Of a stretch of 64,000 nt of DNA, positions 1 through 30,800 are shown piece by piece. Under the pieces are notes generated by a model. It saw nothing but the letters and a program-made list of their open reading frames with translations. It was not told the DNA's origin and searched no databases. The DNA comes from Candidatus Poseidoniaceae archaeon. Its GTDB lineage: Archaea; Thermoplasmatota; Poseidoniia; Poseidoniales; Poseidoniaceae. The position numbers and the translations under genes are program-made. Numbering within the stretch: position 1 is the first letter of the stretch; every line of letters begins with the position of its first letter. The stretch spans positions 1 through 64,000 of the forward strand of contig CALHIR010000039.1 of NCBI GenBank assembly GCA_938030705.1, written 5' to 3'.

Positions 1-1
1 C

Positions 2-151
2 TACGTTCGTGGTGTTTACCTTCCAGGCTTCGAAGTCGTTCCTGCCATCTCGATGATCGCCCTCGCTGGCGCTGTGGCTGGCCGACGCTTCCTCAACACC
101 GAAGAAGACGGTGAGGAAGAAGTCTGGCGAGAGTCGGCTCCCGGCCTTTGA
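2..151 (+). CDS. C-terminal end of a surface protein with a PGF-CTERM-like anchor (partial)
   Basis: Only the last 49 codons are present; the gene begins upstream of the window. The visible tail reads LPGFEVV followed by a hydrophobic stretch of about 16 residues, then GRR and an acidic tail ending at TGA (149-151). A PGF tripeptide, a transmembrane segment and an Arg pair are the plan of archaeal PGF-CTERM signals, which archaeosortases process to attach surface proteins to lipid. The tail after the Arg pair is about 20 residues, longer and more acidic than in haloarchaeal examples, so it may simply be a single-pass anchor. The frame is open from base 2 and shares its amino-acid style with the other envelope proteins here. 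Confidence 0.6.
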   Translation, partial: YVRGVYLPGFEVVPAISMIALAGAVAGRRFLNTEEDGEEEVWRESAPGL

Positions 152-241
152 CAGACCCTCTGCAAAACCGTTCCCTGCGACTCATACAGGGGTTGGATTC
201 ATAACACCGTTCGCAAAACGATGCGATAACGGGGATTGACC

Positions 242-1453
242 ATGGGTGGATTACTGGACAAAGCCAACGCAGCCAAAGAAACTGAAACAGAGGCAAAAGC
301 GGCTGAGCCTCAGCCAGTTGTTGCCAAATCGGCACCAGAGCCAGTAGCTCAGAAAACGGGCGCTGCTTCACCCCCGGGCGACGGCGGTTCGCTTTTCGAG
401 AGGTTCAGTAAACCAGGAATGGCCCTTGGTGGTCTGGCATTCATATTCACATGGTTCCTCGGAAGTTACGCATTGGAAGACCTCACTGGACCGGTTCCCT
501 TTGGTCTAGTTGTTCTCCTTATGTTCATCGGTTCTTTCTATCTTGTCTGGCAATCGGTTGACCGAGAAAAAACTGTGGTGCTTGCCGTTGGTTATCTCCT
601 GCTTGCGGGCGTTCCGTACGGTGTCGGTTTGCTCGGAGATGGATTCGTTGGGATTACGGATATTGATTACAACGAAGACGGGGATGAGTTGATGTTCAAA
701 GTACGTGGAAGTTTCAATTCCGTAGATATCTCCATTCGAGCAGATGGAACCGAGGTCTGGTCGGGGGGTGAAGATCTTTCCAACGAGATGAAGAATTTCA
801 AGATTCCAATCACTGAGATGTTTGCAGGAAACGGAGAATTGTTTGATGGAAATGCGGATGTGGAGTACACAATCTATGCTGAATCATCAAACGGTCTTAC
901 CAACGAAGTTCCCATACCCAGCAAACTCGTGACACGTGAGGCACAAGATGCAGGCATTCGTATTGCTCCGCTACAGAACAGCAACAACAACGATGAGTAT
1001 TTGGGTATCACGATTGAGGCATTGGTTGGCCTCATCAACCCTAACTTCAACAACAGCAACGGTGGCGGATTCCAAGCTGTCGGCCTCCGACCTATGAACG
1101 GTGATTACACCGTTGATGTCACGGTTAGTGGAGGTGATGCTTGGAGCGAGAGCACCATCACTGTTGATGAAGACACAGCCACATGGGCTTCCCAAAGCAC
1201 AGGCACCGGAAGTGCAACGACCACGGGTTGGTTTGGTTTGACGGGTACCGAAGAAGATGTCAACGGTGTGCTTTACCTCGACAAGAGTGATTTCTATGAT
1301 GACCCTGGTTGCTACACATTTACCGTTGACATCGTTAACACCGTGAGTCCAACCACAACTCACACAACCTCATGGAGTTGGGAAATTGATCTAAGCTCTG
1401 GGGACGGTGAAGCCAGTGTGGCAAAGGGCTTTGGTATCGGTGATACCTGTTAG
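242..1453 (+). CDS. Membrane protein with three N-terminal TM segments and an exported beta-rich domain, unknown function
   Basis: A protein of about 403 residues. I start at ATG 242 (MGGLLDK) rather than the in-frame TTG at 236. The first 60 residues are rich in Ala, Glu, Lys and Pro and probably cytoplasmic. Hydrophobic segments follow at about residues 60-80, 87-106 and 112-132. The rest is a Ser/Thr/Gly/Asn-rich, probably extracellular region with a pattern suggesting Ig-like or beta-sandwich domains, ending in GIGDTC. I recognise no enzymatic motif. The preceding 90 bases (152-241) are intergenic and would hold the promoter. Confidence 0.8.
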   Translation: MGGLLDKANAAKETETEAKAAEPQPVVAKSAPEPVAQKTGAASPPGDGGSLFERFSKPGMALGGLAFIFTWFLGSYALEDLTGPVPFGLVVLLMFIGSFYLVWQSVDREKTVVLAVGYLLLAGVPYGVGLLGDGFVGITDIDYNEDGDELMFKVRGSFNSVDISIRADGTEVWSGGEDLSNEMKNFKIPITEMFAGNGELFDGNADVEYTIYAESSNGLTNEVPIPSKLVTREAQDAGIRIAPLQNSNNNDEYLGITIEALVGLINPNFNNSNGGGFQAVGLRPMNGDYTVDVTVSGGDAWSESTITVDEDTATWASQSTGTGSATTTGWFGLTGTEEDVNGVLYLDKSDFYDDPGCYTFTVDIVNTVSPTTTHTTSWSWEIDLSSGDGEASVAKGFGIGDTC

Positions 1454-1508
1454 TTGGACAGAATTACCGGCTAAAGGCTGATGAAGCCGTTTCGTCTAGG
1501 ATTCTTCC

Positions 1509-1694
1509 ATGGAGGAGACGTTCTGGTCGCTTGAGGAGGATGCGGACCTCCCACCGCCTGTCAAAGCCACAGGTCAACCTGAACGGTCAACATCGGCTCA
1601 ACAGCCTTCTGCTCACAACGGGGTGGACATCATTCCGCTCAAGCATACATTCGACGATATCATTGCGTTCGCTGTTTGTTTGTCCCAACAGTGA
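1509..1694 (+). CDS. Possible small protein, 61 aa, unknown
   Basis: A short frame between two convergent genes. It starts with ATG preceded by AGGATTC, a weak ribosome-binding-like stretch, and stops two bases before the end of the minus-strand surface gene. The product is acidic at its N-terminus (MEETFWSLEEDAD), with a Pro/Ser/Gln-rich middle. There is no recognisable domain, and it may be chance coding in a 243-base spacer. Confidence 0.3.
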   Translation: MEETFWSLEEDADLPPPVKATGQPERSTSAQQPSAHNGVDIIPLKHTFDDIIAFAVCLSQQ

Positions 1695-1696
1695 AT

Positions 1697-3505
1697 CTAG
1701 TCCTTGCTTTCCTGTTGAAGGTCGTAAATCGATGAGGTTGAATCTTCTTCCATCTCTTCTGAGGCTTCCTCATCATCATCTTCCTCTTCTTCGACTCCAT
1801 CGTCATGGGCATCCGACGTTTCATCGTCTTCGGTGCTGTCTACGACATGGTCTTCTTCGTGCAGCGTGTAGGCCTTTGGCTGTGCCTGTCTGCGAGTTTG
1901 CGAAGCAATGAACAAGGCAAGACCAACGAAGCCTGCGAGAGCGACAATCAAGATAATGAGGGGGAAGTCTTCGATTTCCTCTTCGTATTCCCATGTTATG
2001 ATATCTGAATCCGCACCGGTGGTGTCAACAACCAAATCCGAGATTCCGCTCAAAGCCGAGGGTAGCAATGGTTTGCAGGTCAGGGTGACCTCACCGGCTT
2101 CGTACATGTACCACGTGAACGGCACATCCTTGGATTCACCAGCCGTCAAACTGACCACGATTTGGGTTGTATCAACAACCTCGTCACCGTTGTAGCACCA
2201 AATACTCACGCCTGAAACATCCGCATCACCGGTGTTCGAGACGCTGACCATGCCAGAAACACTCTTGTTGGCAACGGCCGTGGTTGATTCAGGTGAAACA
2301 GAAGTCACCGCAACGTAAGGGAGGTCCAATTCGATGCTGCCTTCGGTCGTGGAGGGGGCGTCAATCGTTTTGGAGAAGGTCCCCCAACTGCTTGTGATGG
2401 AAAGGGTGATGGTCGCCTCCTCTTGGTGGAGAACGCCGTCGCCGTCCATCCATTCCACCATTCGCTTCCACTCGTTGGTCGCTCCGGGTTCTACGAAGAT
2501 AATGTCACCGTTTTCATCGGTCAAATCGTTCCAATCGTTTGCTCTGTAGCCGATGTCATAAATGTCAAGGCTGCCGTTTGGAATGTTGGTGGAAAGACTG
2601 CGTTGTGAGAGAAGTCGGACCCAAGCATCGGTGGTGCCGCCGGTCCCCTGGCTGTTGGTGTAGGTGATTTGCGCCTGATCGTGAAGGATGATGTCTTCGT
2701 CCGACCTCGACCCACTGATGATGCTGTTGAGCACGGCCACCGATGAGGTGGACGCCGCCTCGACCGGTGCACTTCCAACCAGTTCCGTATTGTCGAACCG
2801 GCAGAGTCCTTCGCAGCGAATGTCTGCGCCAGAGATGGTGCTGCTGGTGGCCGTGAAGTCGCCGTGAGCTGTGATGTTGAATCCTGATTGGAACCAGTAC
2901 AGTGGGGCGTCCGACGCCTCAATGTCTTGTGCGAGGAGCGTCTCGGTGTTTCCTCCTCCGTAAATCGCCTTGGCCCAGAGTACATAGGTGGGCGTGAAAT
3001 AATACGAATCAAAGGTGATGATGAGGTCCGTGTTGTTCAACGGGGCATCAAATTGGACAATGTCAAGGCCGGAAGCGTTGATCGTTTCGTTTCCGAGGGT
3101 GATGTTCATCTTGGAGCTCGCATCGATTGCATGGTTGAATTTCAGTTGAAGGGCACCCTCGTCAGCCAAATCGCCAAAATTGAGGGTCAACGTGGCAAAC
3201 ATGCTGTTGACCATCAGGCCTGCGTTAAGGTCGTCGCTCAGCAGGGCGCCGTTGGTGACGACCAATTGCCCACCGTCCTCCACGGTGATGGACGAACCCG
3301 TCTCCATGGTGATGTTGGCGTTCACGGTCAAGGTTGAACCGCTGGACACCACGACATGGCCGTTCATATGAGCATCTTCGGTCCATGTCTCCGAAGATGC
3401 GATGGTGTTTGTCTCTCCTCCTGCCGGTGGAGCGGCAGCAGCCAGAGGGGCCGTGAGGAAAAGCAGACTCAGGATGAGGGCGAGCGGATGAAGTCGTGTT
3501 CGCAT
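1697..3505 (-). CDS. Single-pass surface protein with acidic cytoplasmic tail
   Basis: A protein of 602 residues with a clear Sec signal peptide (MRTRLHPLALILSLLFL then an Ala-rich cleavage region). The exported part is rich in Thr, Ser, Asn and Asp. The N-terminal half has beta-solenoid-like wording (SGSTLTVNANITMETGSSI). A CARDB/Ig-like domain lies around residues 390-490 (SVSNTGDADVSGV). A transmembrane helix near residues 520-540 (FPLIILIVALAGFVGLALF) is followed by basic residues and a tail dominated by Asp and Glu. The topology is outside domain, one membrane pass, acidic cytoplasmic tail. Its ligand is unknown. It is divergent from purD across about 100 bases. Confidence 0.85.
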   Translation of the reverse strand: MRTRLHPLALILSLLFLTAPLAAAAPPAGGETNTIASSETWTEDAHMNGHVVVSSGSTLTVNANITMETGSSITVEDGGQLVVTNGALLSDDLNAGLMVNSMFATLTLNFGDLADEGALQLKFNHAIDASSKMNITLGNETINASGLDIVQFDAPLNNTDLIITFDSYYFTPTYVLWAKAIYGGGNTETLLAQDIEASDAPLYWFQSGFNITAHGDFTATSSTISGADIRCEGLCRFDNTELVGSAPVEAASTSSVAVLNSIISGSRSDEDIILHDQAQITYTNSQGTGGTTDAWVRLLSQRSLSTNIPNGSLDIYDIGYRANDWNDLTDENGDIIFVEPGATNEWKRMVEWMDGDGVLHQEEATITLSITSSWGTFSKTIDAPSTTEGSIELDLPYVAVTSVSPESTTAVANKSVSGMVSVSNTGDADVSGVSIWCYNGDEVVDTTQIVVSLTAGESKDVPFTWYMYEAGEVTLTCKPLLPSALSGISDLVVDTTGADSDIITWEYEEEIEDFPLIILIVALAGFVGLALFIASQTRRQAQPKAYTLHEEDHVVDSTEDDETSDAHDDGVEEEEDDDEEASEEMEEDSTSSIYDLQQESKD

Positions 3506-3605: not shown

Positions 3606-4880
3606 ATGAATGGAGCAACGGTGGTCGTCGTCGGCGGCGGTGGACGGGAACATGCGCTCTGCCTGTCTCTAAATGCGTCTGCCCGTGTGGATGCTCTTCA
3701 CTGTGTTCCGGGAAACGCTGGAACCGCCCAAATCGCCACGAATCACACCTTGGGCATGGACATTGTTGGCCTGGTCGGGCTGGCGGTGCAACTCAAAGCC
3801 GATTTGGTGGTTGTGGGTCCTGAGGCCCCGTTGTGTGATGGTCTGGCCGATGCGTGCCATGAAGCCGGCATTCCCTGTTTTGGTCCGGTGGCGGCGCTCG
3901 CTCATTTGGAAGGGTCAAAACTCCATGCCAAGCAGACGATGGAGGAAGCCGGTGTTCCGACTGCGGCTTATCAGCGCCTTGACGCTGCCAGTGACCTCGA
4001 TGCGGCCTTGGATGCTTTTGCTGGCGACCCTTGGGTGGTCAAGCGAGATGTGTTGGCCGGTGGAAAAGGCGTGGTCGTTACCTCTGACAGAGGCGAAGCC
4101 AAGGCCTTCATCGAAGCCTCCATCAAGTCGGACGGTTTTGTGCTGTTGGAAGCCTTTCTCCCGGGCGAGGAAGCGAGCATGCTCGTGGTCATGGACGGCA
4201 CGGCCTACCGTACACTTCCTGCGAGTCAGGACCACAAACGGGCTTACGACGGGGACGAAGGGCCCAACACGGGAGGCATGGGGGCCTACTGCCCTGCCCC
4301 GGTCGTTTCTGCCAGCGTTCACGAAAAAATCGTCCAGCGCATCGTTGAACCGATGCATCGTCATCTTGCACGTCAAGACACCCCCTATCGGGGTGTGCTC
4401 TTTATTGGCTTGATGATCGATGAACACAACGACCCCTACGTGGTCGAATTTAACGTTCGTTTTGGCGACCCAGAATGCCAAGTGACCCTCCCGCTGCTGA
4501 AAACCGACATGTACGCCCTCCTTCACGGGGCGGCGACCGACGGCCTTGGAGATGTCACCCTCGAACTTCATGCCGGTTCAGCGGTCACCGTGGTCCTTGC
4601 CTCCGAGGGATACCCTGCTTCCCCCATCAAAGGGCGCCCGCTTCGTGGGCTTGATTCACTGCTGGAGAAGACGAGTTACGGTCAAGCTTGGGTCAATTTT
4701 GCAGGCGTTTCAACCGATGAAAACGGTCAGTTCATCGCCTCCGGAGGTCGTGTTCTTTCCTGCACAGCCCTTGGTGCCGACCTTTCCGTCACCCAACAAA
4801 CATCCTACGAATTGATGAACGCCATCAGCCTAGAAGGCGGCCATTTCCGAACCGATATCGCCCATCGGGCCATCGACTAA
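3606..4880 (+). CDS. purD: Phosphoribosylamine-glycine ligase (GAR synthetase)
   Basis: A 424-residue ATP-grasp enzyme of de novo purine synthesis that joins glycine to 5-phosphoribosylamine to give GAR. The N-terminal GGGGREHAL motif (residues 8-16), the PEAPLCDGLAD segment, the ATP-grasp glycine-rich loop VLAGGKGVVV, the GPNTGGMGAY signature and FNVRFGDPE metal/ATP site are all intact, and the length is normal for PurD. ATG 3606 is the only start that keeps the N-terminal beta strand intact. No other purine gene is visible nearby, so it appears monocistronic with its own TATA-like element. Confidence 0.97.
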   Translation: MNGATVVVVGGGGREHALCLSLNASARVDALHCVPGNAGTAQIATNHTLGMDIVGLVGLAVQLKADLVVVGPEAPLCDGLADACHEAGIPCFGPVAALAHLEGSKLHAKQTMEEAGVPTAAYQRLDAASDLDAALDAFAGDPWVVKRDVLAGGKGVVVTSDRGEAKAFIEASIKSDGFVLLEAFLPGEEASMLVVMDGTAYRTLPASQDHKRAYDGDEGPNTGGMGAYCPAPVVSASVHEKIVQRIVEPMHRHLARQDTPYRGVLFIGLMIDEHNDPYVVEFNVRFGDPECQVTLPLLKTDMYALLHGAATDGLGDVTLELHAGSAVTVVLASEGYPASPIKGRPLRGLDSLLEKTSYGQAWVNFAGVSTDENGQFIASGGRVLSCTALGADLSVTQQTSYELMNAISLEGGHFRTDIAHRAID

Positions 4881-5027: not shown

Positions 5028-8000
5028 ATGGAAGAAGAAACGGAAACGAAGGCTGAACAGCCTACTGCCATCATGGGGTTGCTACTTGCACCTCTGGCCG
5101 TGCTGCTCGCTCTTGCCACCACCAAAGTCGTAGGCATTGAGTACGACTTGACATTGAACAACATGATGCCGATGCTCGTCGTCGCCATCGCATCCATGCT
5201 GGCCTTGGTGCCACGCATTGTTCTGGCATCACGACCCGACTTGTCCACCTCCACCGTTTCCCTCGGCGTGTTGGTTTTTGCCCTTGTCGGTGCTGAAGGC
5301 CTCTACATGTTTGCGGGTGTTGACGCCGTTGCTGCATTGATGTTTGCCGTCGTGCTCGTTCTGGGCTCGAACCTTGACCAACGCGGCCGCCATGAGTGGA
5401 TGACCGCCTTGGCTTTCGGTGCTGTTGGCTTTTGGCTGGCACTGGCCGCTGCAGGCGATGCCCTTGCTGCCCTTCCTTCCACCTACTCGATGGAAAGCGG
5501 GCAATTGGTCTCCACCATGAACTTGGAACGCCAAGCCACGGCTTACGTGTTCTTTGCTTACCTGTCGTTGTTCACCGTGGCCGGTTTGCTCGCTGGTGTG
5601 ATCGCTCGTGGCGTCTTGAATCCCGCCGCCTCAGAAGGATGGTTTTCGTTCTTGGGCCAAAAGACTGGGTTTAACCGAAACGCCCTCCCCTTGATGGTGG
5701 CCCTCGGTGTTTGGATTCTCGCGTTCGCTGGTTCACTCTACCACTTCAACTCGGTCAGCGTTGTTGACCAGTTGGGCATCACCACTGAAGAAGGATACCA
5801 CGGCTACATCGGCTATTGGACGGCCTTCCTCACCGGTGTCGTTGCGCTCATTGTCGCCGGCATGGTGGCTGAACGCTGGTTCACTCGTGCCATGCTCATC
5901 GGCTCAATGTGGGGACTCTACCAGGTGGCTGCCTGGTTTGAGGCTGGCATTTGGTACTCAGAAGACCTCGACGGAACGTGGGGCGCCTTGATTTGGCTTG
6001 GCTTCACGTTTTTCTTGGGCGCCGGAATCTACTACCTCGGCAATCACGAAAAGTACGGCGGTTGGGCCAACCTTGGAGAACACGAGCCATCACAGGCTCG
6101 TCTCTTCCTGCGCGCTCACGGAGCAAGCATGATGGTGGCCATGGCCTTCTTCATCGGCCTTGCCATCCGCATTCAGTGGTACGCTGTCCCATCAATGAAC
6201 GCCTTTGGAACCGGTAACTGGGACATGACCGGGGGTTCTGACCCGTGGTACATGAAGCGTGTTGTCGACTATATCTTGGCCAACAACGCCCACCTGGTTG
6301 TAGACGCTGACCGATGGTACCCCGTCGGTGGCATCAACCCCCGACCACCGCTCTTCACGTGGTCAATGGCCATTGGCGCCATGTTGCTCGAGCCGTTTAT
6401 CGGTACACCCGAAGATGCCGTTTGGTGGAGCATGCTCGCTCTGCCTGCTTTGTACGGCGCTCTGACGGTCTTCCCGATCGCCGCCATCGCCCGTGATCAC
6501 TTCGGAAAGGGCGCAGGCGTTCTGGCCGCATGGCTCATCGCTTTCATGCCGGCTCACGTCACCCACTCGACGTGGGCCCTGGCTGACCACGACTCCTTCG
6601 TGATGCTCTTCATCTCTGTTGGCTTCATGTATTGGCTGCGTGCAGTGAAATATTCCGGGTCTGCCCGTATCACCAAAACCATCTCAATTCACCCCTTGTC
6701 GTTCCTTCGTGCCTTTGGCGACGTTGCGAAGTATCGCCAAGCGGCCATGGCCAACGCCGTGTTGGCTGGTGTTGCTTTCGGTATCGTCTCACTGGGTTGG
6801 AAAGGGTTCGTTGTCGCTCCTTCGATTTTGTTCTTGGCCTACGCTCTGCAAGTCGCTCTGAACATGTTCCGTCGTCGCGATTCCACAACCTTGAGCGTGA
6901 TGTTCCTCGTCATGTTGGCCACCACGTTCTTGATGGCCATCCCGTTCTATGCCCATCCACAATTCGACCTCGTGTTCGATGGAACTGGCCTGCAACCCTT
7001 CCTGTTCATCTTCGGCTTCACGTTGGCCATTTCCTTCGTGACCACCGGGTTCCGAGACAAGCCTTGGTTGTTGGTCCTTGGTACACTTGCAGCACTTGCT
7101 ACCGTGTTCTTTGCCGTTCTCTACGTGCTCAAGGCACTGGATATTTCCAACGCTTGGGACGTCTTGCTCACCGGCAGCGGCTACTTCACAAAGACCAAGA
7201 TTTTCGGTACCGTTGCTGAAGCAAACGCACCAAACCGTGCGCAACTCTTTGCCTCGTTTGGTCCCATCACCTTCATGCTGGCCCTGATCATGGGCGGCGG
7301 CTTGCTCTGGCGAGGTTTGCGAAGCCGAAACGCCACCGCCTTGGTGTTTGGTGTTTGGGTCTTCGCTGCGACCTTCATGGCTTGGAACGCTGCTCGTTTC
7401 ATGTTCAACGCTACGCCCATCATGGCCGTTCTTGGTGCTGCAGGCATCATGTCGTTCTGGCAGTGGGCCAACTGGAGCGGGCTTGTTCGTTCGTGGAAGA
7501 AATTCGGCATTCGAACACCAGCGGACCGGATTTCCGGCGCACGAAAGGCCGTATGGCGAACACCGCAGTTCTCTGCTGTGTTCTTAGTGATGATCATGAT
7601 CTTCGGTCAACAAGCGACCTATGGTTTGGATTCCGCCATTCCAGGCACGTCCAACCAAGAGTCTGAAATCGATGAGCGCATCTACAACATCGTTCCTGAT
7701 ATTCTCCGCTTTGACGGCCTTGGCTTTTCCATTCTTGACAGCAGCAACTACGACGGCCGTTGGTACTTAGGGAGCTTTGGTTCATCCTTCAACGATAACG
7801 GATGGAACGCCGCTTACGATTGGTTGGCCAACCAGGATACAGACATGGCTTATTCGGATAAACCCGCCTTTGTTTCATGGTGGGACTACGGTTTCCAGGC
7901 CATGAGCACGGGTGAACACCCCTCGGTCTCTGACAACTTCCAGAACGGTATTCCCGCAACGGGTAACATGCTTTTGGCACGGAACCAAGACGATTTGACG

Positions 8001-11000
8001 GCCATGTTCATTTGGCAGTTGGCTGAAGGCGATCGCTCCTATGCCACTGAAGGCGAGGACTACCGTCTCACGCCGACTTTCGAAAACACGGTTAAGAAGT
8101 ACCTCTCTGAGGAGCAATACGACGATTTCCACACCATGCAGACCACCTTTGATGACACCATGATCGACTTCATTGAACTGCGTTCGTTCAATGTCCTCAA
8201 AACCAACCGAGACGTCGTCATGGCCGAAGGATACACCCATGAAGCCGGTGTGTTTGATGCCAGCACCAAGGTCTACAAGATTTGGAAAGGGAGCGAAATC
8301 ATTCCCTGTACGGATGCCGTTTCCACTTCGTGTGTCGGCGATGCATGGAGTTCTGAGGAGCAAGCTGACATCACGTTCAACAACAATGTCCGAACCTCTG
8401 AAGAAACGGTAGAGGGGCGCACGCACACCATCTTTGGTGAGTATTGGTACACCGATGATTTGCTTGACGAGTTCCTTTCTGTCTCAACGGCCCTTCACCG
8501 AAAGAACGCACGTTTGGCCATGACCACGCAACTGTTGACGGCTGCGTTTGATGCCAACTCCGACCATACCATCCACGACCTGTACAACGACCTGATCAAC
8601 CTTGAAGGTCTTTACAAGGTTCAGAATTACGAAGGGGCTCCCGGGGAAATGATTTCCCGAGACCACGAGATTCGGTACTTCGCTATCGATGACCGACTTT
8701 ACCCTCGTGCAGGTCGCTACACGGCTGACGCCAACTACAACCGCGGACAACCCATGGGTATCTTCGGGGCACCAACCATCCTCGCAGGCCAAGACATCAC
8801 CACCTACATGAACGAAGTTTACGAAACGGTTCGTGGAGACTTCCAGGATGAAATGACTCGAGAAGAAGTGGATGAAGCCATGCAAAAGGACTTCCTCAAC
8901 CAGCAAGCGGGTGCAGATATCGACCCCTTGCAAATCGAGGACGTGCGCGTGGACCACAATCCCGCTTTCTTTGATACCATGGTGGCCAGAACCTACGTTG
9001 GATACGGTGCTTCGACCCTCGGTCTAAACGCTGGCTCGAGCAACCCACAACCCTCTCAGCACTTCGGTCAATCGGGTTCACCCGGTACCATTCTGACCAA
9101 CGCTTTGCCGCTCCCAGGTGCGATGATGAACCATTTCGTCATCTCCAACTGGTACAGTGAGGTCCCTGAAGACCAAATTCAATCCACCAACACGCTTGTG
9201 AAGATCCTGAAGTACTATCCCGGTGCTGAACTGACCGGTCAAGTCACGATGAGTGATAACGGCGAAGGCCTTCCCGGCGTTCGTTTGCTCATTGAGCGTG
9301 ATGCATTCTCGGGCGAAGGCCCGGTGGACTTGGATGAGGACACTTACTGGGTCCCCATCGGCTTTGTTGACGCTGACGAAGACGGACACTACAAGTTCCT
9401 TGCACCCGCTGGAAAGATTCGAATTTCGGCCTTTGCCGGCGACTTTGACGCCAGTTCCGCCCGAGACAAGATTCGAGACGGTTCCTACGGTGAGCGCCTC
9501 GGCGACATTCTGACGGACACCAACGACGACCGTGAAATCAACGAAATCACGGCCATTCTTGGTCAAGTCGCTAACATGACTTGGTTAGGAGAAGCCCAAC
9601 TCAACGTCACTGCCGATCAGGCCAACCGAATGGTCGACCTGCAAGACACCCTTGACATCGCTGTAGAGAGTAGCGGTGTTTCCGGCACGGTCTCATGGTC
9701 CGGCGATGAAGCCTTCAACGGCGATCCCATTGCTGAAACAACCTTTGTTCTTCGAAATATTTGGTCGATGACTGACAACTACACGGTGGAAACCACCAGT
9801 GGTTCGTTCACCTCAGAGGAATCTCGCATCCTCCAAGGAACGGGTGAAGCCACCCTCGTCGAGAACGGTTCCTTTGACAGTGAAGGCATCGCTCTTGCAA
9901 GCAACTTCATCGGAGATTTCACTCGTGATATCGGCGACGAACGTACCTTCTTTGCAAACGGCACATGGACCGGATTTGGTATCATCGAGGCGACATGGGT
10001 TGAACCAACCGATGTGATCGCTTGTGATGTCGACAACGAATCCGACTCCGATAACCCCGTCCCCGTCATGCCCGCCAACGAGACCTTCTGTCTTATCGAC
10101 GACACCGGCGACACACCGTCCTACCGGCTTGAGGGAACGGTTGATGCCTTTGGTACATTCACGTCCGAAGGAACCTCAACGCTCACTCGAACCTACGGCG
10201 ACGCCGATGCCGGTCAAGGCGAGACCATCGAAGGCGCAGGTCTCTTTGAGGGAACGGGTACCTTCAACGGTACGGGCTTGTTCATCGGTGTGGGTACCTT
10301 CTCGGGCCCCATGGTCGAAGCCGGTTCGTTCTACAAGACGGGTCTGCTTCCCGGAACCTACAACATGATTGCACAACTTGCCAACGGAAAGGAAGTTCTT
10401 CTCCCAGACCCCGTTGAGATTGGCATTGACCCAACCTACGATCTGGCCATGACCATGCCGGGCGCTATCTTCAAGGACACCCTCAAAGATATGCACGGGG
10501 ATGCCATGCCCAACCAAACGATTGAGTTTGTTGATGTTGAACTCGGTGAAGCATATGCCGTCATGATCACCACCGATGAGGAAGGCAATTTCTCCTACGG
10601 TCCCGTCGCACCCGGCGAGTATTATTATCGCGGGGATGTTGACGGTGATGGCTGGTACGATTACAACGAATCCGCCTTTGTCAACGACGACATCACCAAC
10701 ATTACGTTGGCGTTGAACGTTCCTGATACAGCCGACGTGACCTTGACACTTGTCTCTCCGCTTGACCCAATCACGCAGGAACCCCTGTTTGATGTGGCCA
10801 ACCGTACCATCACGTTTGAGAACGAGCTGGATGTACTCCTTCCCGTCAATGTCACCAGTGATGAAAACGGCGAAATCTACGCTGAACTCCTGTTCGGTGT
10901 GTGGAACATCCGAGACGATGTTAACCCTGAGTTCGTTCTGTTTGACCAAATCGAATTGGAACCAGGCACTGAAGATATTGTTCGGGACGTCACGTATGCT

Positions 11001-14000
11001 CAAGCGGTCTTCATCAACGGAACCATGCGCTCCTACCCCGGTGTGACCATCGAAGAATACGACCAGTGGTCGGAGATGACGCCAGAGGAGAACCGTGAGG
11101 AAACCACCGAGGCAGCCTCGGCCTTGACGGTCAACTTTGTTTCAGGCAGTCTTGAGTTCACCGCCGTGACCAATGTTTCCGGTCACTTCTCCGTTCGTGT
11201 GCCATCTGGGTTTACCTATCACATGACCACTGAGAGCGTCATCATCAACCGTGGACTGGGACAACTTGTTCAGGCCGATACCGGCGATGATGTGGACCTC
11301 GGTTCGCTCTATCTTGAACCGACCACCACGGTGAACGGCGTTGTTTACCTTTACGACAACGGCAGCCGATGGGATGCTTCGCTCCCAACATGGGAAGCGC
11401 CAGAGGTTGTGGCGACCAACCAAGACGGGCTCATGTGGCGTGCCACAGCCAGTGAACTTGGGGAATTCGCCCTTGATTTGACGGACGGTACATGGGACCT
11501 TTCCGTGGATGATGCACGTTTGAACGTCAGCGGTGCTGACGGCCTTCTTGTGAATCACTCCGACACCACGGTCCTTTCCACAATGGAACTTATTGCCAGC
11601 CCTGATCCCATCGAAGTGACCATGCATGTCTACTTGAATTCCGATGAGGACGGGTCGTTTGAAAACGGCACCAAGGCCACACCAGAATTCACGCTGCGAC
11701 CTATTGATGAGAACCGAGAGAGTCTCTACTTCGCTGCAGACGACTACAGCGAACCGGGCATCATCACCGTGCCGCTCACACCCGGTGGATACGATATCGT
11801 GTTCAACCGCACGACGGCCGACAACGAAAACGCCACGGATTACGACCTCGTTGGCGAGCAGTTCTTTGACGCCCTCCGGATTGGACTGGATTCGGTTGAC
11901 GAGCCTGTCGAAGTGCCGCTCAAGAACACCTACCTTGTCTCCGGAACCCTGGTCAACACCACGGACGATGGCATTCAAAACGACTTCTTGCTTTACAACG
12001 AGGCTGACGATGTTTGGTTTAACATCGGCTCTGACGAAAACGGCTCCTTTGCCGCCTATGTCCCTGCTGGAGAATGGCTCATCATCGTTGCACCGTTTAC
12101 CAACGGAAACCATACAGAAACGCTGCGCCAACCTGTCTCGGTTGCTTCTGGTTCCGACCGTTTGGGTCTTGAACTTAAGACAAATATCAGCGTTGAAGTC
12201 ACGCTACAACTCTGGGAAGAAACCACTGAAGCCAAACTCGGGGACATGACGGTCACCGCCGTGAGCCATGAGGGACTCGGCAACATCACCTTCGAACGAA
12301 CCGATGACAACGGCAACTCTACCGAGTTGCTCATGCCCGGTGTGTGGAGCCTGTATCTAAACCGAACCATCGGTACAAAGTCGTGGTTCATGGACACCAG
12401 CGAGACTCCATTTAACACCCAGGCGGCCGTGAACAACAGCTTGGTTCTGGAGCCTGTGAACGCCACCCTCCAAGTTGAGATCGGTGGAAAGGTCTACTGG
12501 GACCTTGACAACAACAGCGCTCCAAGCCAAGGTGAAGGTCTGCCCGAGATGAACGTCACCGTTCAAGGCGACAACAACTCCGGCTTCTTGGAAACGGTCA
12601 TGACCGACGACGAAGGTGTTTGGCGAGTCTTTGTTCCAATCCGTGATGTCTACAACGTCACCGTTGAGAAAGAAGGCTTCGAGACCGTTTACTACGAAAC
12701 TGAAAACCAATCCGGCTACACCGTTCGCGACAGTCCAGATTCGACAGATATCGAAGTGACCGCCGGTCTGGTCGATGTCATCGGTTCGGTCACTGACCAA
12801 CTTGATGCTGCCAGACTCGTCGACGCAAGTATCGTTCTCTACCCCATTGCGGGTGTTGAGCGAGACGCTGTCCACGTTGACGGCGTGATGAACGGTACCA
12901 CCCTCGAGTGGTCGAGCAGTGTTCAGCCCGGAGAATGGGTGGTCATCGTAACGCAATCCAATCCAGGCCAAAACGGTGGCGGCGTAGCCATCGGTCTGCT
13001 CGATGCAACGGTTTCCAACGGCGGAAACATCACGATGGTCATGGCTCTGGGCGGCTATGTTGAACTGGCTACTGCATGGACCGATATTCAACAGAACGAC
13101 CACAACGCTGGTTCCGGCGACACTGGAGCGGCTATGATTCAAGACGGTGTGGAGTTGGAAGTGACCTTTGGCGACATGAACTGGATGATGCCTGTTCCTG
13201 AAAACGGTGAACTGCGTGTTCTGCTCCCCGAAGGAAGCGTTTCCTTTGACAGTGAATTCTTGACGGTTCAACACAGCACGAACCTTGAGATGGAGTATTA
13301 CGGTGGTCAAACGACCACGGTTTCGGCAGATTCAACCATCGCCGCTACCTTGCAGTTCAACCGCCGTGTGAATTCCGCATTGGACATCACCTTCAACGAC
13401 GCTTCGCTGACCGATGCTACACTGCTAAGTGCGGTTGATGCTGAGGTGGAAGCCATGGTTTCTACGACCAATACATCCGTTTACAGGACCATTACGTTCG
13501 ACTATGATGTCGTTTACAACGGAACGGAGCTCATGGATGTGTTCACTGTTTCCGGTGAAATGGGACTTGCACAAGATTCCGACCTATGGACGGTACAGTT
13601 CTGGAACGCTTCTGCGGATGAAGGTACTGGTGCTTACGAGGACAGCATCAGTGTCGCTCTCGGCATAGGTGATGACGCGACTCCGGCCGTTCTTTCGCAG
13701 ACCGTCAAGGTGCAGATCACCCTGCCAGATGTCGAGGATGCTTGGAAATTGACCAACGGTCATCGGATGACCATGCGTCTGCAAACGGACATCGGCGAGG
13801 CATCCCAAGCTTCAATCAAGGTGTTCGTGCCCCAAACCTACGGCTTCACCATTTCTGACGCAACCGAGGAGCTCGGTATGGCGAGCCTCGTTGAGCGCCA
13901 GTTCTCGTTTGACCTCACCAACAACGGAAACGGTCAGGACTCCTTTACCATTGAATTGGGTGAAGTTCCTGAGGGTTGGTCGGTCACACCGATGACCTCC

Positions 14001-14633
14001 ACCTTGACCCTGAGCAAGGATGAAACCCGAACGCAACAATTCACCGTCTTTGCTCCCGAATCGTATCAAGAGGGCGATTTCGATCTCACCGTTTACATCA
14101 ACAGCGTAGGCTACATCAACAGCGAGGACTATGTCCCTGGCGTGAGTGAGGATCTTTCGGAAGAAGTTGTTGTCAGCATCCAGAAAGCCATGATTAAACT
14201 GACCTTGAACACGGCTGACATCGCCACACAATCCGACCTCATCGCAGGTCAAGACGGTGCGGTGAGAATCCCTGTGAAGAATATCGGTCTTCTCGATGCA
14301 CCATCGGTCATCGTCTATCTTACGCCACCCGGTGGGGCGGAGATGACCCAGAGCATTTCGGTGCCTGCCGGCGGTGAAGGTGTGGCTGTCTTTGAGGGCC
14401 TGTCGTTTAATGCAGGCAACCAGCGGTTTGACTACCGAATGGAAGTGGCTGGTCCGGAGAGCGATAGTGTTGAATCCATTCCTGCTGCCGATGACTTCAG
14501 TTTGGAGTACAACATTGAATCCTCTGCTGACGGTGAGTCGCCTTGGATGACCCTGCTCATTGCTCTGCTTGCGATTTTGGTCGTTTACGGCGGTATTCGT
14601 ACCGCTCGTAGCCGTGGTGGAACCAAGTTCTGA
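5028..14633 (+). CDS. aglB: Giant AglB/STT3-type oligosaccharyltransferase with a long exported C-terminal extension
   Basis: The protein has 3201 residues; most archaeal AglB proteins are under about 1100. AglB moves a lipid-linked glycan onto Asn of N-x-S/T sequons on the outer membrane face. Residues 1-360 hold about ten TM segments that precede the usual STT3 core. The core then shows GGSD405PWY (first acidic motif), AD520HD522SF (second), many TM helices and the catalytic WWDYG at 951-955. A peripheral region with YYPGAELTG (about residue 1400) matches the known end of AglB. After it come roughly 1700 extra residues: repeated carboxypeptidase-regulatory-like beta domains, a four-copy hexapeptide repeat (1735-1758), a NEW3/CARDB-like region near 2960-3150, and a final TM helix with a basic end (RTARSRGG). 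The extension is full of N-x-S/T sequons. The frame is unbroken. The core assignment is firm; the role of the extension is unknown. Confidence 0.93.
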   Translation: MEEETETKAEQPTAIMGLLLAPLAVLLALATTKVVGIEYDLTLNNMMPMLVVAIASMLALVPRIVLASRPDLSTSTVSLGVLVFALVGAEGLYMFAGVDAVAALMFAVVLVLGSNLDQRGRHEWMTALAFGAVGFWLALAAAGDALAALPSTYSMESGQLVSTMNLERQATAYVFFAYLSLFTVAGLLAGVIARGVLNPAASEGWFSFLGQKTGFNRNALPLMVALGVWILAFAGSLYHFNSVSVVDQLGITTEEGYHGYIGYWTAFLTGVVALIVAGMVAERWFTRAMLIGSMWGLYQVAAWFEAGIWYSEDLDGTWGALIWLGFTFFLGAGIYYLGNHEKYGGWANLGEHEPSQARLFLRAHGASMMVAMAFFIGLAIRIQWYAVPSMNAFGTGNWDMTGGSDPWYMKRVVDYILANNAHLVVDADRWYPVGGINPRPPLFTWSMAIGAMLLEPFIGTPEDAVWWSMLALPALYGALTVFPIAAIARDHFGKGAGVLAAWLIAFMPAHVTHSTWALADHDSFVMLFISVGFMYWLRAVKYSGSARITKTISIHPLSFLRAFGDVAKYRQAAMANAVLAGVAFGIVSLGWKGFVVAPSILFLAYALQVALNMFRRRDSTTLSVMFLVMLATTFLMAIPFYAHPQFDLVFDGTGLQPFLFIFGFTLAISFVTTGFRDKPWLLVLGTLAALATVFFAVLYVLKALDISNAWDVLLTGSGYFTKTKIFGTVAEANAPNRAQLFASFGPITFMLALIMGGGLLWRGLRSRNATALVFGVWVFAATFMAWNAARFMFNATPIMAVLGAAGIMSFWQWANWSGLVRSWKKFGIRTPADRISGARKAVWRTPQFSAVFLVMIMIFGQQATYGLDSAIPGTSNQESEIDERIYNIVPDILRFDGLGFSILDSSNYDGRWYLGSFGSSFNDNGWNAAYDWLANQDTDMAYSDKPAFVSWWDYGFQAMSTGEHPSVSDNFQNGIPATGNMLLARNQDDLTAMFIWQLAEGDRSYATEGEDYRLTPTFENTVKKYLSEEQYDDFHTMQTTFDDTMIDFIELRSFNVLKTNRDVVMAEGYTHEAGVFDASTKVYKIWKGSEIIPCTDAVSTSCVGDAWSSEEQADITFNNNVRTSEETVEGRTHTIFGEYWYTDDLLDEFLSVSTALHRKNARLAMTTQLLTAAFDANSDHTIHDLYNDLINLEGLYKVQNYEGAPGEMISRDHEIRYFAIDDRLYPRAGRYTADANYNRGQPMGIFGAPTILAGQDITTYMNEVYETVRGDFQDEMTREEVDEAMQKDFLNQQAGADIDPLQIEDVRVDHNPAFFDTMVARTYVGYGASTLGLNAGSSNPQPSQHFGQSGSPGTILTNALPLPGAMMNHFVISNWYSEVPEDQIQSTNTLVKILKYYPGAELTGQVTMSDNGEGLPGVRLLIERDAFSGEGPVDLDEDTYWVPIGFVDADEDGHYKFLAPAGKIRISAFAGDFDASSARDKIRDGSYGERLGDILTDTNDDREINEITAILGQVANMTWLGEAQLNVTADQANRMVDLQDTLDIAVESSGVSGTVSWSGDEAFNGDPIAETTFVLRNIWSMTDNYTVETTSGSFTSEESRILQGTGEATLVENGSFDSEGIALASNFIGDFTRDIGDERTFFANGTWTGFGIIEATWVEPTDVIACDVDNESDSDNPVPVMPANETFCLIDDTGDTPSYRLEGTVDAFGTFTSEGTSTLTRTYGDADAGQGETIEGAGLFEGTGTFNGTGLFIGVGTFSGPMVEAGSFYKTGLLPGTYNMIAQLANGKEVLLPDPVEIGIDPTYDLAMTMPGAIFKDTLKDMHGDAMPNQTIEFVDVELGEAYAVMITTDEEGNFSYGPVAPGEYYYRGDVDGDGWYDYNESAFVNDDITNITLALNVPDTADVTLTLVSPLDPITQEPLFDVANRTITFENELDVLLPVNVTSDENGEIYAELLFGVWNIRDDVNPEFVLFDQIELEPGTEDIVRDVTYAQAVFINGTMRSYPGVTIEEYDQWSEMTPEENREETTEAASALTVNFVSGSLEFTAVTNVSGHFSVRVPSGFTYHMTTESVIINRGLGQLVQADTGDDVDLGSLYLEPTTTVNGVVYLYDNGSRWDASLPTWEAPEVVATNQDGLMWRATASELGEFALDLTDGTWDLSVDDARLNVSGADGLLVNHSDTTVLSTMELIASPDPIEVTMHVYLNSDEDGSFENGTKATPEFTLRPIDENRESLYFAADDYSEPGIITVPLTPGGYDIVFNRTTADNENATDYDLVGEQFFDALRIGLDSVDEPVEVPLKNTYLVSGTLVNTTDDGIQNDFLLYNEADDVWFNIGSDENGSFAAYVPAGEWLIIVAPFTNGNHTETLRQPVSVASGSDRLGLELKTNISVEVTLQLWEETTEAKLGDMTVTAVSHEGLGNITFERTDDNGNSTELLMPGVWSLYLNRTIGTKSWFMDTSETPFNTQAAVNNSLVLEPVNATLQVEIGGKVYWDLDNNSAPSQGEGLPEMNVTVQGDNNSGFLETVMTDDEGVWRVFVPIRDVYNVTVEKEGFETVYYETENQSGYTVRDSPDSTDIEVTAGLVDVIGSVTDQLDAARLVDASIVLYPIAGVERDAVHVDGVMNGTTLEWSSSVQPGEWVVIVTQSNPGQNGGGVAIGLLDATVSNGGNITMVMALGGYVELATAWTDIQQNDHNAGSGDTGAAMIQDGVELEVTFGDMNWMMPVPENGELRVLLPEGSVSFDSEFLTVQHSTNLEMEYYGGQTTTVSADSTIAATLQFNRRVNSALDITFNDASLTDATLLSAVDAEVEAMVSTTNTSVYRTITFDYDVVYNGTELMDVFTVSGEMGLAQDSDLWTVQFWNASADEGTGAYEDSISVALGIGDDATPAVLSQTVKVQITLPDVEDAWKLTNGHRMTMRLQTDIGEASQASIKVFVPQTYGFTISDATEELGMASLVERQFSFDLTNNGNGQDSFTIELGEVPEGWSVTPMTSTLTLSKDETRTQQFTVFAPESYQEGDFDLTVYINSVGYINSEDYVPGVSEDLSEEVVVSIQKAMIKLTLNTADIATQSDLIAGQDGAVRIPVKNIGLLDAPSVIVYLTPPGGAEMTQSISVPAGGEGVAVFEGLSFNAGNQRFDYRMEVAGPESDSVESIPAADDFSLEYNIESSADGESPWMTLLIALLAILVVYGGIRTARSRGGTKF
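10230..10301 (+). repeat. Four tandem hexapeptide units (xGxGxF) within the AglB extension
   Basis: Eighteen-base units encode EGAGLF, EGTGTF, NGTGLF and IGVGTF (residues 1735-1758), with looser copies on both sides. The periodic Gly/Phe pattern suggests a small beta-solenoid or stacked beta element in the exported part of the protein. Confidence 0.75.
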
Positions 14634-14697: not shown

Positions 14698-15906
14698 ATG
14701 GAAGGTCTTCGGGATGTCGAGTACCTTCCTGAACCCTCCGACCGACGCATTGTTTCAGCCGTTGATCCCACCGTGATTGGGTTTCAAAATGAGTGGCGTT
14801 CTGAAATTATGGGGTGGGCGCCTTACGAGGTTGAGCCTGTGGTCCGACCACGACGAAAGGCCGTCACGGTTCCAGGCGTGGTGGTCTTTGCGCTGCTCGT
14901 TTCAGCCAGTTTACTCATGTGGCAGAACCAGTGGCTGGTCGTGGACCTACCTCTTCCAGAATCAGAGTGGGCCTTCGAAGACACGTCCATCCGTTCCTTG
15001 CAAGAAGAGGGTCTCACCGGAGCGGGTGTTCGGGTCTGCATGGTGGATACCGGTGTGGATGCGACGCACGATGCTTTTTCATCCAGCCAGATTGATTTTA
15101 GGGATTTGGTCGGCACTTCTCGCACCCCCGTTGATTACGGCGCAGTAGCCCACGGGACGTTGATGGCTGGATTACTCCTTTCTACGTCGCATCAATCGGG
15201 AGCCGCCCCGAATGTCTCTTTTGGAATGGTGGCCGCATTGAGCGATAACGGCGCAGGCGAGAACACCGGCTCTGATGCAGATGTGGCTGATGCGATTCGA
15301 TGGTGCCAATTTGAGTTTGAAGCTGACATCATTTCCTTATCGCTAGGGGGTAATGAAGGTGCAGGAAGGTCTGAAGGCGGTTCCTCGGCCGCAACACGTC
15401 AAGCGACGGACGCAGGGATTTACGTCATCGCTGCTGCTGGAAACGATGGCCAAGATGACGACGGTGATGTCGCCTCTCCTGGTAGCGTCGCCCTTTCCAT
15501 CTCTGTAGGTGCTGAAACGCGAACGGGCTCATTATGGGCCAATTCTTCCATGGGCTCCCTCTTGGACCGGGGCGGAGAACAACGGCAAAGTCCTCACTTG
15601 AAACCCGAAGTCACTGCCCCTGGTGAGCGAATTATCAGCACCGGTGAAAACAACCTGTGGTATTCCAGCAGCGGCACCTCGGATGCAACGGTGTTCGTCG
15701 CCGGTGCCCTGGCGTTGATTTTGGAAGATCAACCATGGCTCAAACCACAGCCAGGTGGAAACGCCTCGTGCTTGATTCAAGTGAAGCAAGCCCTGATGGA
15801 TTCTATGAGGGTCGACGGGGTCAGTCAACACGATGCTCGGGGTGGCTATGGTTCTCTTGATGCCAATGCTTGGCACCAAGAAACTCGGACGATTTCAGCG
15901 TGTTGA
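14698..15906 (+). CDS. Membrane-anchored subtilisin-like serine protease (family S8)
   Basis: A 402-residue protein. The catalytic triad is visible: Asp117 in VDTGVD, His152 in AHGTLMAG and Ser328 in SSGTSDAT; the oxyanion Asn is N249 in AAAGND. About 55 mostly hydrophilic residues precede a single TM helix at about 57-75, so the protease domain should face outside with an inside N-terminus. No cleavable signal peptide or long propeptide is evident. The serine loop is GTSDATVF rather than the common GTSMAAP. It lies 64 bases after the AglB-like gene on the same strand and may be co-transcribed. Processing or turnover of surface proteins is a reasonable role, by inference. Confidence 0.93.
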   Translation: MEGLRDVEYLPEPSDRRIVSAVDPTVIGFQNEWRSEIMGWAPYEVEPVVRPRRKAVTVPGVVVFALLVSASLLMWQNQWLVVDLPLPESEWAFEDTSIRSLQEEGLTGAGVRVCMVDTGVDATHDAFSSSQIDFRDLVGTSRTPVDYGAVAHGTLMAGLLLSTSHQSGAAPNVSFGMVAALSDNGAGENTGSDADVADAIRWCQFEFEADIISLSLGGNEGAGRSEGGSSAATRQATDAGIYVIAAAGNDGQDDDGDVASPGSVALSISVGAETRTGSLWANSSMGSLLDRGGEQRQSPHLKPEVTAPGERIISTGENNLWYSSSGTSDATVFVAGALALILEDQPWLKPQPGGNASCLIQVKQALMDSMRVDGVSQHDARGGYGSLDANAWHQETRTISAC

Positions 15907-27708: not shown

Positions 27709-27896
27709 GTGAACATCGTCCCTCCGGCGCGGGAGGGACTTGAATGCACCGATAAAAGGGGCTGCAAGGCGTCTCTTTTTCAACCAAATCCGCGCTTTGG
27801 AAGAAGGATTTGTATGAACAATGTTCCATCACCCTCATAAGCAATCTTAGCAAGGTGAAAAGAGAGCGAGGCGGAGCCTTTGCCGACGGTGAGTTC

Positions 27897-30800
27897 ATGC
27901 GACGAAGTCAAACAACCATCTTGACCACGCTTGCCGTGATTGCCAGCCTTCTCTTCATGTCGCAATTCCCGACCATCTCTAACGTTTCAAACATCCATCC
28001 CGACAACACGGATGGTACCCCTCCCCCCAACACCGACACCGATGGGGATTTGATACCGGACGTACACGAAACGTTGTTTGAAGAATGGATGAACTGGACA
28101 GCGGTTGACGGGCGTGAGGTCGTCATCCCGGGGCTTGACAAAAACAACGCATCGGATGCTTCCACTGACCGAGACCTCGATGGACTCAACGCCACCGAAG
28201 AATTCTGTTGGCCGTACCCAGCCAACTGTACGGCGCCAGGTTTTCCTCGGGGTCTGACCGGCCAGCTGGATGAGAACAGCGATCGCATTTACCTCGACCC
28301 CCGCATCTCTGACTCGGACGGCGACGGAATGCCCGACGGTTACGAAGCCTACATGTGCCACCGAATGGGGGGTTTTGACCCAGTTGCTCTTCGTTATTCC
28401 TGCCCTTCTTTTGACCCGCTCAACGGCAGTGACCTGACGCTGGATGGAGATAACGATGGATTTGACGTTGACAGGGATGGCATCCTCAGCGATGCCGAGC
28501 GCTACACGGCGCCTGAGGAATACGCCTATGGTTCTCCTTCAAATTTCACGGCTGAACTTGACGGCCTTTGGTGTCATGCGACGCTACCCGAGGGTGCAGC
28601 GCTGAAGAATTGGCCTTACCTCACCTCGGGCTCCAACGCGACCTTCCACAACCTCCTCAGCGCCTGTACCTCCCGCGCCGTCAATCCGGTCGGTGAAGAT
28701 CTCTGGTTAGGGACCGACCCTCTGCTGGACGATTCGGACCGCTACCTTTGGGACGGGTTTTCCATACGCCCGCTCTATCCTTCTTTTGGTGATGGCATTC
28801 CCGACGGCTGGGAAGTTCATTTCGGGCTCGACCCGTTGAACCGGTCCAACGCCTTGGATGACCCTGATATGGACGGCTGGGACACCAATCGAGACGGTGG
28901 CGTTTCCGAGGATTTGGCACGCACATTGACGGCTCTGAAAGTTGGAGAAGCGTTGTCCACTCTGGAGGAATACCTCGTGCATTACGATGACGGAAACACG
29001 GTCTACCCCGGACTCAAGTCCACCTTGCTGGGTGATGAAAGCGGCGTTGATACCATGCCCCTTGTTTACGATGCCACCGAGGATGTTCTCGCCGTCATGC
29101 ACCATGACGTTCGAGCCTTGGAAGAACACGATGGCACGGTCTATGCGATGACGAAATACGGGGTGAGTGTACTCAATCAGGAAACGAATTCACAAAGCCA
29201 TCATTGGCTACCACAAGGCGTCCTCCTCCACGATGGTTTCCTCGCCTTTTCCGACGGCATGCCCTATGCCGCCGTGATGGGGACCAGCGTTGGTTTCGCT
29301 GTCGCACCACTTTTGGCTGATGGCAGCCTTGGGTCCATCGCTACATGGGACTGGTCCCTCTCTGAACCCTTGCATGCCGTTGCCCCGCTCGCCGGTGAAG
29401 ACGTGAATCTTCACGCCATCGGTTTAGGTCACGCAGGAGATGGCACCATCGTTGAAATTGACAACACCGCTTCCATCGCTGCAACCTTTGGCCTCGGCGC
29501 TGGATTGCAAGCCGGTTTGGGTGAAGCCAATGCCAGCGTCACCTCCATTCAGCACGGGATGGTTGTCGGTACCAACTTCAAACTCTTCGTCGGTACCGAC
29601 CGAGGCTTGTTTACGGTTGATACGGCGTCAGCCCGTGATGAAGCAAGCGGGACGTGGCGATTCTATTACACTCCCGAAGCGACCTCTCTTCCAACCGATG
29701 TCGACGAGGTCCGGAGCTTGCCTCTCGGTTCAAATGACAATCCGGCAGAAATCAGGGATTTGGTCCTTGATGGTCCTTCGGCCTCCAACGCTCAGGCGCT
29801 ATGGTTTGGTACCCCTGCCGGTCTGCACAAACTGGATTTAAACGATGATTTCATCGAACACAGCGGCCTCATGGCACACCCGGGTGTTGATGGAAAACTC
29901 TCGCGTCAATCCAATAACATTCACGCCATTTTTCCTACGGGTGATGAACTGCTCATTGGCTCTGAATGGGGTCTTTGGGCCTTGGCGGGCGATTATACGG
30001 CGGTCTACGGTCTTCAAGACCAGACGCGAATTCCGGGGGAGATCGTCGCCATCGCTACATCCGCCGGTGAGGAAAACTTGACCGTTTACGGTGCATCTTC
30101 ACCCGGTCAATACGCCAATCTTTTGCTTATGGATCCAGGTGCTAACGATTCCGATGCCGACGGCATGCCCGATGGTTGGGAAGTCGTACACGGCTTGGAC
30201 CCAACCGATCCTTGGGACGCCCTGTACGACAACGATGCTGACGGTCTTGACTTGGACCAGTCAGGAGACATGAATCTAGAGCGTCTTTGGACAAACCTTG
30301 ACGAATTCCGCTATACGAAACTCACGCCAGAGGGATACAATTCCACCGACCCACGAGAAGGTGACACCGACGGCGACGGGCTTGGCGATGGCGCTGAATA
30401 TTACGGCTTCTTTTTCGAACAAACCAACCTTTGGTGCTATTACACGGTCCAATTGGTCTATGTTTGCGATGAGGCCAAGGGTGCGGCGGCCAACGCCACT
30501 TACCTTTCGATGGCCAACGTGGATGCTGCTATCGACCCGACCAATCACGACACGGACGGCGACGGAATGCCGGACGGCTGGGAAATCGAACATCGCCGTT
30601 GGGTTGGTGACACCTTCTCCGGCGGAAACAATTGGAGCCTGGACCCGTTGCGCCCCGAGGACGCTAACTGGGATGCCGACGGCGATGGCCTGCCCAACCT
30701 CTGTGAGTACCAATGGTCGGTCGTTCGGCTGATGGGCATCAACGGTGAGTTGTTCGATGAATACGGTGAGTCTCCCGAAGCTGCCGAGGCGTGGTCGGTC

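Follow-up and report, generated by a model that had tools for sequence, protein, structure and literature searches.

Archaeal oligosaccharyltransferases (OSTs) serve as a simple single-subunit model of N-glycosylation. No published description of a long form of the archaeal enzyme, AglB, or of the arm and N-terminal module analyzed here was found in the literature searched; Nikolayev et al. 2020 (cited in PMC8993221), which is reportedly a survey of AglB across Archaea, may have noted long AglBs. Among the closest described systems, AglB-L of A. fulgidus (PDB 5gmy/3waj; 875 residues in the crystal construct) has an STT3 core, two DXD-type motifs, a TIXE motif, a WWDYG motif, and a C-terminal globular domain that ends in a beta unit. 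The TIXE motif and the roles of AglB motifs have been defined previously, as has the DGGK motif of euryarchaeal AglB, which is presumed to bind the lipid-linked oligosaccharide (PMC8342417). Variants of another motif, DK/MI (located on the kinked helix; Ser/Thr pocket), that contain insertions need a structure to be recognized (PMC3703281). A related protein family, TIGR04154, comprises OSTs associated with the archaeosortase A system. Outside the OSTs, NOMO of the BOS complex consists of a chain of transthyretin-like domains, and this luminal chain ends in a C-terminal transmembrane (TM) anchor.

Poseidoniales are uncultivated archaea that are abundant in the surface ocean. We analyzed a 64,000-nucleotide stretch (the window) of contig CALHIR010000039.1 from a Candidatus Poseidoniaceae archaeon (GCA_938030705.1), in which AglB is about three times its usual size (Table 1). 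The sequence-only reading of this DNA had described an AglB-like enzyme extended at both ends in an unbroken 3201-residue frame; a true AglB-type enzyme with both extensions is supported, and the frame is exactly as described. The protein resembles A. fulgidus AglB-L in its STT3 core, all four motifs, and the globular domain, the KYYPGA region of which aligns to the terminal beta domain of AglB-L (approximately residues 753-828, with a weak single-domain score), and differs from it in size and in having a ten-helix module, an arm, and a second anchor. The accompanying statement that known AglBs end shortly past the YYPGA region holds for the characterized ones, given this alignment and their length of 754-1054 residues (PMC5131992), and because of that length the residues before ~355 and after ~1480 are considered extra.

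Table 1. Features of the giant aglB locus and its flanking genes in the window (residue numbers refer to AglB)
Feature	Residues	Position	Strand	Basis
Whole AglB/STT3-type oligosaccharyltransferase frame	1-3201	5028..14633	+	ATG start; 3201 codons unbroken; full length kept in relatives
N-terminal module, ten predicted TM helices, N-terminus inside	1-355	5028..6092	+	Hydropathy, positive-inside rule
STT3/GT-C membrane core	365-900	6120..7727	+	Pfam STT3, TIGR04154, profile match to 5gmy (E 9e-34)
First DXD-type motif, GGSDPWY	402-408	6231..6251	+	Invariant, 34/34
Second DXD-type motif, ADHD	519-522	6582..6593	+	DHD 34/34, A 33/34
TVAE, the TIXE motif (external loop 5)	728-731	7209..7220	+	T(V/I)(A/G)E in 34/34, with T and E invariant
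WWDYG catalytic motif	951-955	7878..7892	+	Invariant, 34/34
C-terminal globular domain, sequon-depleted from 991 on	900-1480	7725..9467	+	Conservation; 50 sequons vs 127 reversed-motif controls, 34 sequences
KYYPGAELTG, opening the beta domain that is the last one in characterized AglBs	1395-1404	9210..9239	+	Profile alignment
Exported arm with 41 sequons; chain of beta domains resembling transthyretin/CarboxypepD_reg and NEW3/CARDB	1481-3160	9468..14507	+	Domain matches
Best-scoring CarboxypepD_reg of the arm	2501-2559	12528..12704	+	E 6e-14; in 21/21 relatives
Membrane-proximal NEW3/choice-of-anchor-T-like domain, sequon-poor	2924-3032	13797..14123	+	NF041740 E 9e-7, below its cut-off
C-terminal membrane anchor, basic tail	3172-3190	14541..14597	+	In every complete Poseidoniales copy
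purD, phosphoribosylamine-glycine ligase, upstream neighbor (context only)		3606..4880	+	Pfam GARS_A/N/C; synteny in both families
S8 subtilase protease, N-terminal hydrophobic segment, downstream neighbor		14698..15906	+	Pfam Peptidase_S8 full length; synteny

The giant frame is real, far beyond chance, given its recurrence in relatives, low dN/dS, and the number of long open frames. The full frame recurs with 71-87% identity in close relatives and 31-54% in distant ones, and a protein search retrieved 17 Poseidoniales loci, 13 of which cover residues 1-3201, one (L018) residues 1-3175, and three only a part. Among the matches listed, 108 of 150 Poseidoniales loci, from both families, contain an open frame of 3063-3324 codons; thus, related genomes carry the same fusion and not two genes joined in assembly. 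Two loci with shorter frames (L085 and L086) run off the end of the contig stretch examined. An STT3 match was detected in 185 of 194 Poseidoniales genomes, one in each, and the source genome likewise has a single one. Comparison with four relatives gave dN/dS values of 0.05-0.21 in every segment, both extensions included, which are rough values, since synonymous changes approach saturation at some places; judged by these ratios, all regions are under purifying selection.

The Pfam STT3 model matches residues 393-645 (E 1e-13; 52.1 bits, above the cut-off of 24.5). TIGR04154 aligns with residues 368-988 (E 3e-48) at 165 bits, below its curated cut-off of 450 bits, and the C-terminus of the Poseidoniales proteins, unlike that system, has no PGF-CTERM-like signal. 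On these scores, the core is related to TIGR04154 but is not a full member of it. The match to the A. fulgidus AglB structure 5gmy was obtained with a profile built from the core and its Thermoplasmatota relatives. All the motifs of the full STT3 core that had been named from the sequence (GGSDPWY, ADHD, and WWDYG) were located, with the two DXD-type metal/lipid motifs assigned to external loops 1 and 2; conservation was scored over 34 Poseidoniales homologs. The DK/MI motif could not be placed by sequence alignment, and the structure model was too poor to show it. Because the catalytic motifs are intact, activity is to be expected. In addition, an oligosaccharyltransferase gene of coastal Poseidoniales has been listed among differentially transcribed genes (PMC9723583), which suggests that the giant aglB may be expressed.

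As for the N-terminal extension, which had been described as about ten extra TM segments, ten helices are predicted to precede STT3 TM1 by hydropathy and the positive-inside rule. The choice between nine and ten was decided by positive-inside counts, and the loop charges agree both with an N-terminus on the inside and with how STT3 TM1 is known to be oriented. A profile search detected this module in 59 of 60 Poseidoniales genomes, covering both families, and it belongs to the long frame in every case where the contig extends far enough. The same profile found nothing in 15 other Thermoplasmatota genomes (three of them of the same class), with the 59 positives serving as positive control; by this search, the module is specific to Poseidoniales. 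Its identity between the two families is low (19-35%), and E282, W323, and F328 are invariant. A relationship to a known transporter or enzyme was considered and rejected, since no Pfam or PDB sequence match was better than E 0.01. Poseidoniales therefore add an orphan membrane module to AglB. Two other Thermoplasmatota loci (L089:2928-3611, + strand; L090:7150-7848, - strand) encode an AglB with an N-terminal addition of 8-9 helices and about 100 sequons. Homology of the module to this addition, or to the N-terminal part of L093, was rejected (hhalign probability <1%). As the additions in Poseidoniales and in L089/L090 are unrelated, N-terminal membrane additions to AglB probably arose at least twice.

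The other extension had been read as an exported chain of beta domains held by a second membrane anchor, and this is supported by the domain matches and by a single predicted TM segment. CarboxypepD_reg-like domains are found in the arms of all 21 Poseidoniales members compared, and domains of the NEW3 or CARDB type lie close to the membrane. Significant off-register alignments of the arm point to internal repetition. Alignment with the arms of other Thermoplasmatota by hhalign was highly significant (e.g., E 6e-102 over 1707 columns, including the preceding globular domain). In a length survey covering Thermoplasmatota, AglB frames outside Poseidoniales usually had 1830-2740 codons, with a minority of 1170-1430, and every complete long form examined has a hydrophobic terminal anchor, mostly with a basic tail. 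Hence, whether the extension is common in ordinary AglB has a divided answer: the arm is usual in Thermoplasmatota, while only Poseidoniales have the N-terminal module and arms of the largest size. The long forms of other Thermoplasmatota (L087-L099 and L103-L105) share the homologous arm and terminal anchor, but they have 2080-2740 residues, mostly a single TM segment before the DXD loop, and no Poseidoniales module. To judge from this distribution, the arm, present in most of the phylum, and the module have different histories. Most Thermoplasmatota families thus use an AglB two to three times the characterized size, and the conserved, predicted extracellular arm must enter any account of acceptor access. 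The arms encoded at L097:5236-8952 (- strand) and L105:4740-8384 (+ strand) end, by eye, in PGF-CTERM-like tails, as if archaeosortase processed the OST.

By profile comparison, the beta domains of the arm share their type with the beta domain at the end of AglB itself and also resemble the luminal domains of NOMO. When the arm profile was compared with PDB sequences at E 0.001, NOMO2 (9c7v_B, E 8.5e-6) alone matched; among Pfam models, NOMO1-like_9th fails in the giant AglB (20.7 against a cut-off of 27), and NOMO_5th lies above its cut-off in arms of other Thermoplasmatota. NOMO differs in being a separate protein that is not fused to an OST, and the similarity may only reflect a very common domain type. 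If it were to go beyond this, it would bear on the origin of exoplasmic beta-domain scaffolds around the translocon. Among Pfam and NCBIfam matches at E up to 1, there was no S-layer family. Structure predictions, which had low confidence because only 14 close homologs were used (mean pLDDT 35 for residues 1-1200 and 43 for 1385-2584), are unusable beyond secondary structure and do not establish the fold of either extension. Foldseek searches with the arm model returned local matches to pilins, SdrD, and NOMO-type domains, which were set aside because query TM-scores of 0.04-0.11 are no evidence of overall fold. In a tree of the core, short forms nest among long ones; owing to deep-node support of 0.1-0.96 and midpoint rooting, the tree does not decide between loss and gain of the arm.

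N-X-S/T sequons are unevenly distributed along the protein. Summed over 34 sequences, the arm contains 1426 sequons versus 553 reversed motifs and 568 expected from composition (about 2.6-fold), and the globular domain (residues 991-1480) contains 50 versus 127 reversed and 115 expected, i.e., sequons are depleted near the active site. In 20 spread copies, the arm has 844 N-X-S/T versus 321 S/T-X-N, with forward motifs exceeding reversed ones in all 20. There was no N-P-S/T in these copies although N-P occurs 53 times, which is consistent with proline exclusion from arm sequons but not strong, because the S/T-P-N control numbers only three. Sequon density per 100 residues is 1.7-4.2 at residues 1501-2700, 1.0-2.8 at 2701-2900, and 0.6-0.7 in the last 300. 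Other exported proteins within the window are also enriched in sequons, about twofold; therefore, the arm may be nothing more than another surface protein that carries glycans, and it appears to behave like one, somewhat more so than the others in the window. Outside Poseidoniales, the enrichment varies and is weak in several lineages (e.g., 10 vs 13 in L095). Since each genome has one recognizable OST, the glycans of the arm would come from AglB itself, which probably modifies the arm either in cis or in trans. The earlier suggestion that the catalytic core glycosylates its own extension is thus likely in view of the enrichment and the single OST. Self-glycosylation as such is known, because Haloferax AglB is itself N-glycosylated (PMC8241124); what would be new here is its extent.

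The explanation that fits best as a whole, which we put forward tentatively but with a substantial chance of being right, is that the sole recognizable OST of these organisms is an order-specific giant form with a self-glycosylated, doubly anchored scaffold arm and a docking N-terminal module. The core would perform the ordinary OST reaction, and the arm would form an extracellular loop, attached to the membrane at either end. The same enzyme would heavily N-glycosylate most of the length of the arm, in cis or in trans, leaving the catalytic face and the membrane-proximal end bare. Less certainly, the glycosylated arm may act as an exoplasmic scaffold that holds the enzyme beside emerging, folding surface proteins, much as NOMO, or accessory subunits of the OST, do at the translocon of eukaryotes. 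Docking to a partner in the membrane, for instance the translocon or the lipid-linked-glycan supply, would be the task of the N-terminal module. The one line of evidence that points to a scaffold role is domain resemblance, and CarboxypepD_reg-like domains are very common.

It is also conceivable, albeit unlikely, that the arm is mainly a structural glycocalyx, so that AglB copies form a glycosylated surface fuzz in which catalysis and coat are combined in one chain, an arrangement most useful where there is no S-layer. The size of the arm (~1680 residues), its 24-65 sequons per copy, and its double anchoring would suit such a coat, as would the spread of long arms in a phylum that commonly includes organisms without a wall (an S-layer is missing from Cuniculiplasma and from most Thermoplasmatales; PMC5155288). 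However, a membrane enzyme would need very high abundance to cover the cell, and the arm, less conserved than the core, nevertheless keeps a constant length and anchor, which is not required of a coat. A scaffold is preferred over a coat because the arm is related to the last domain of AglB and to NOMO.

With a similarly low probability, and in line with the earlier sequence-only reading, the beta domains may act as a tether or chaperone that binds nascent acceptor proteins or lipid-linked glycans and passes them to the active site. The arm adjoins the catalytic domain, its profile is similar to NOMO, and characterized AglBs already have variable peripheral beta units, P1 and P2 (PMC3703281). 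Nevertheless, no conserved binding surface was identified in the arm, which from ~1800 on is among the parts least conserved between families (16-33% identity), and its heavy sequon decoration would mask a binding face.

The gene neighborhood bears on another, quite unlikely, possibility, namely that the chain is cut after translation, which would release the arm as a surface glycoprotein of its own and leave an AglB of normal form. The S8 protease gene, which starts 64 bases downstream of aglB, encodes a possible processing partner; the order purD-aglB-S8 is kept in both Poseidoniales families, with order-wide synteny of purD-aglB-S8-beta-helix protein, and each half of the chain would have its own membrane anchorage. 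On the other hand, no cleavage motif was identified, an S8 neighbor has many other possible reasons, and the synteny is absent outside Poseidoniales, though long arms are common there. A bolder proposal, which we regard as about equally unlikely, would make AglB its own principal substrate and coat. In Thermoplasmatota, a phylum with many members that have no S-layer, it would have become a surface glycoprotein that is anchored twice and glycosylates itself; in Poseidoniales, it would in addition have taken up a membrane module linking it to the translocon or to the lipid-linked glycan supply.

The idea that assembly or annotation fused two genes, which the two frames of the single-contig Poseidoniales genome G002 might seem to favor, is ruled out by unbroken frames across the order and in independent genomes, one of which (L015, isolate AH-287-P07) probably derives from a single cell, the frame change in G002 falling at the core-arm junction exactly where there is a run of 15 Ns. 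Automatic annotation of that locus (L116; G002:C1:1438500-1453500), where the 15-N run breaks the aglB frame, may wrongly give two genes.

Two other genes of the window are also worth recording. A 1945-residue, probably exported protein (27810-33647, + strand) that has 31 sequons versus 10 reversed motifs as controls, and next to no match in Pfam, is a possible major surface glycoprotein. Moreover, a single frame at 40791-41849 (+ strand) encodes an unusual pairing of pyroglutamyl-peptidase (Peptidase_C15) and NUDIX domains.
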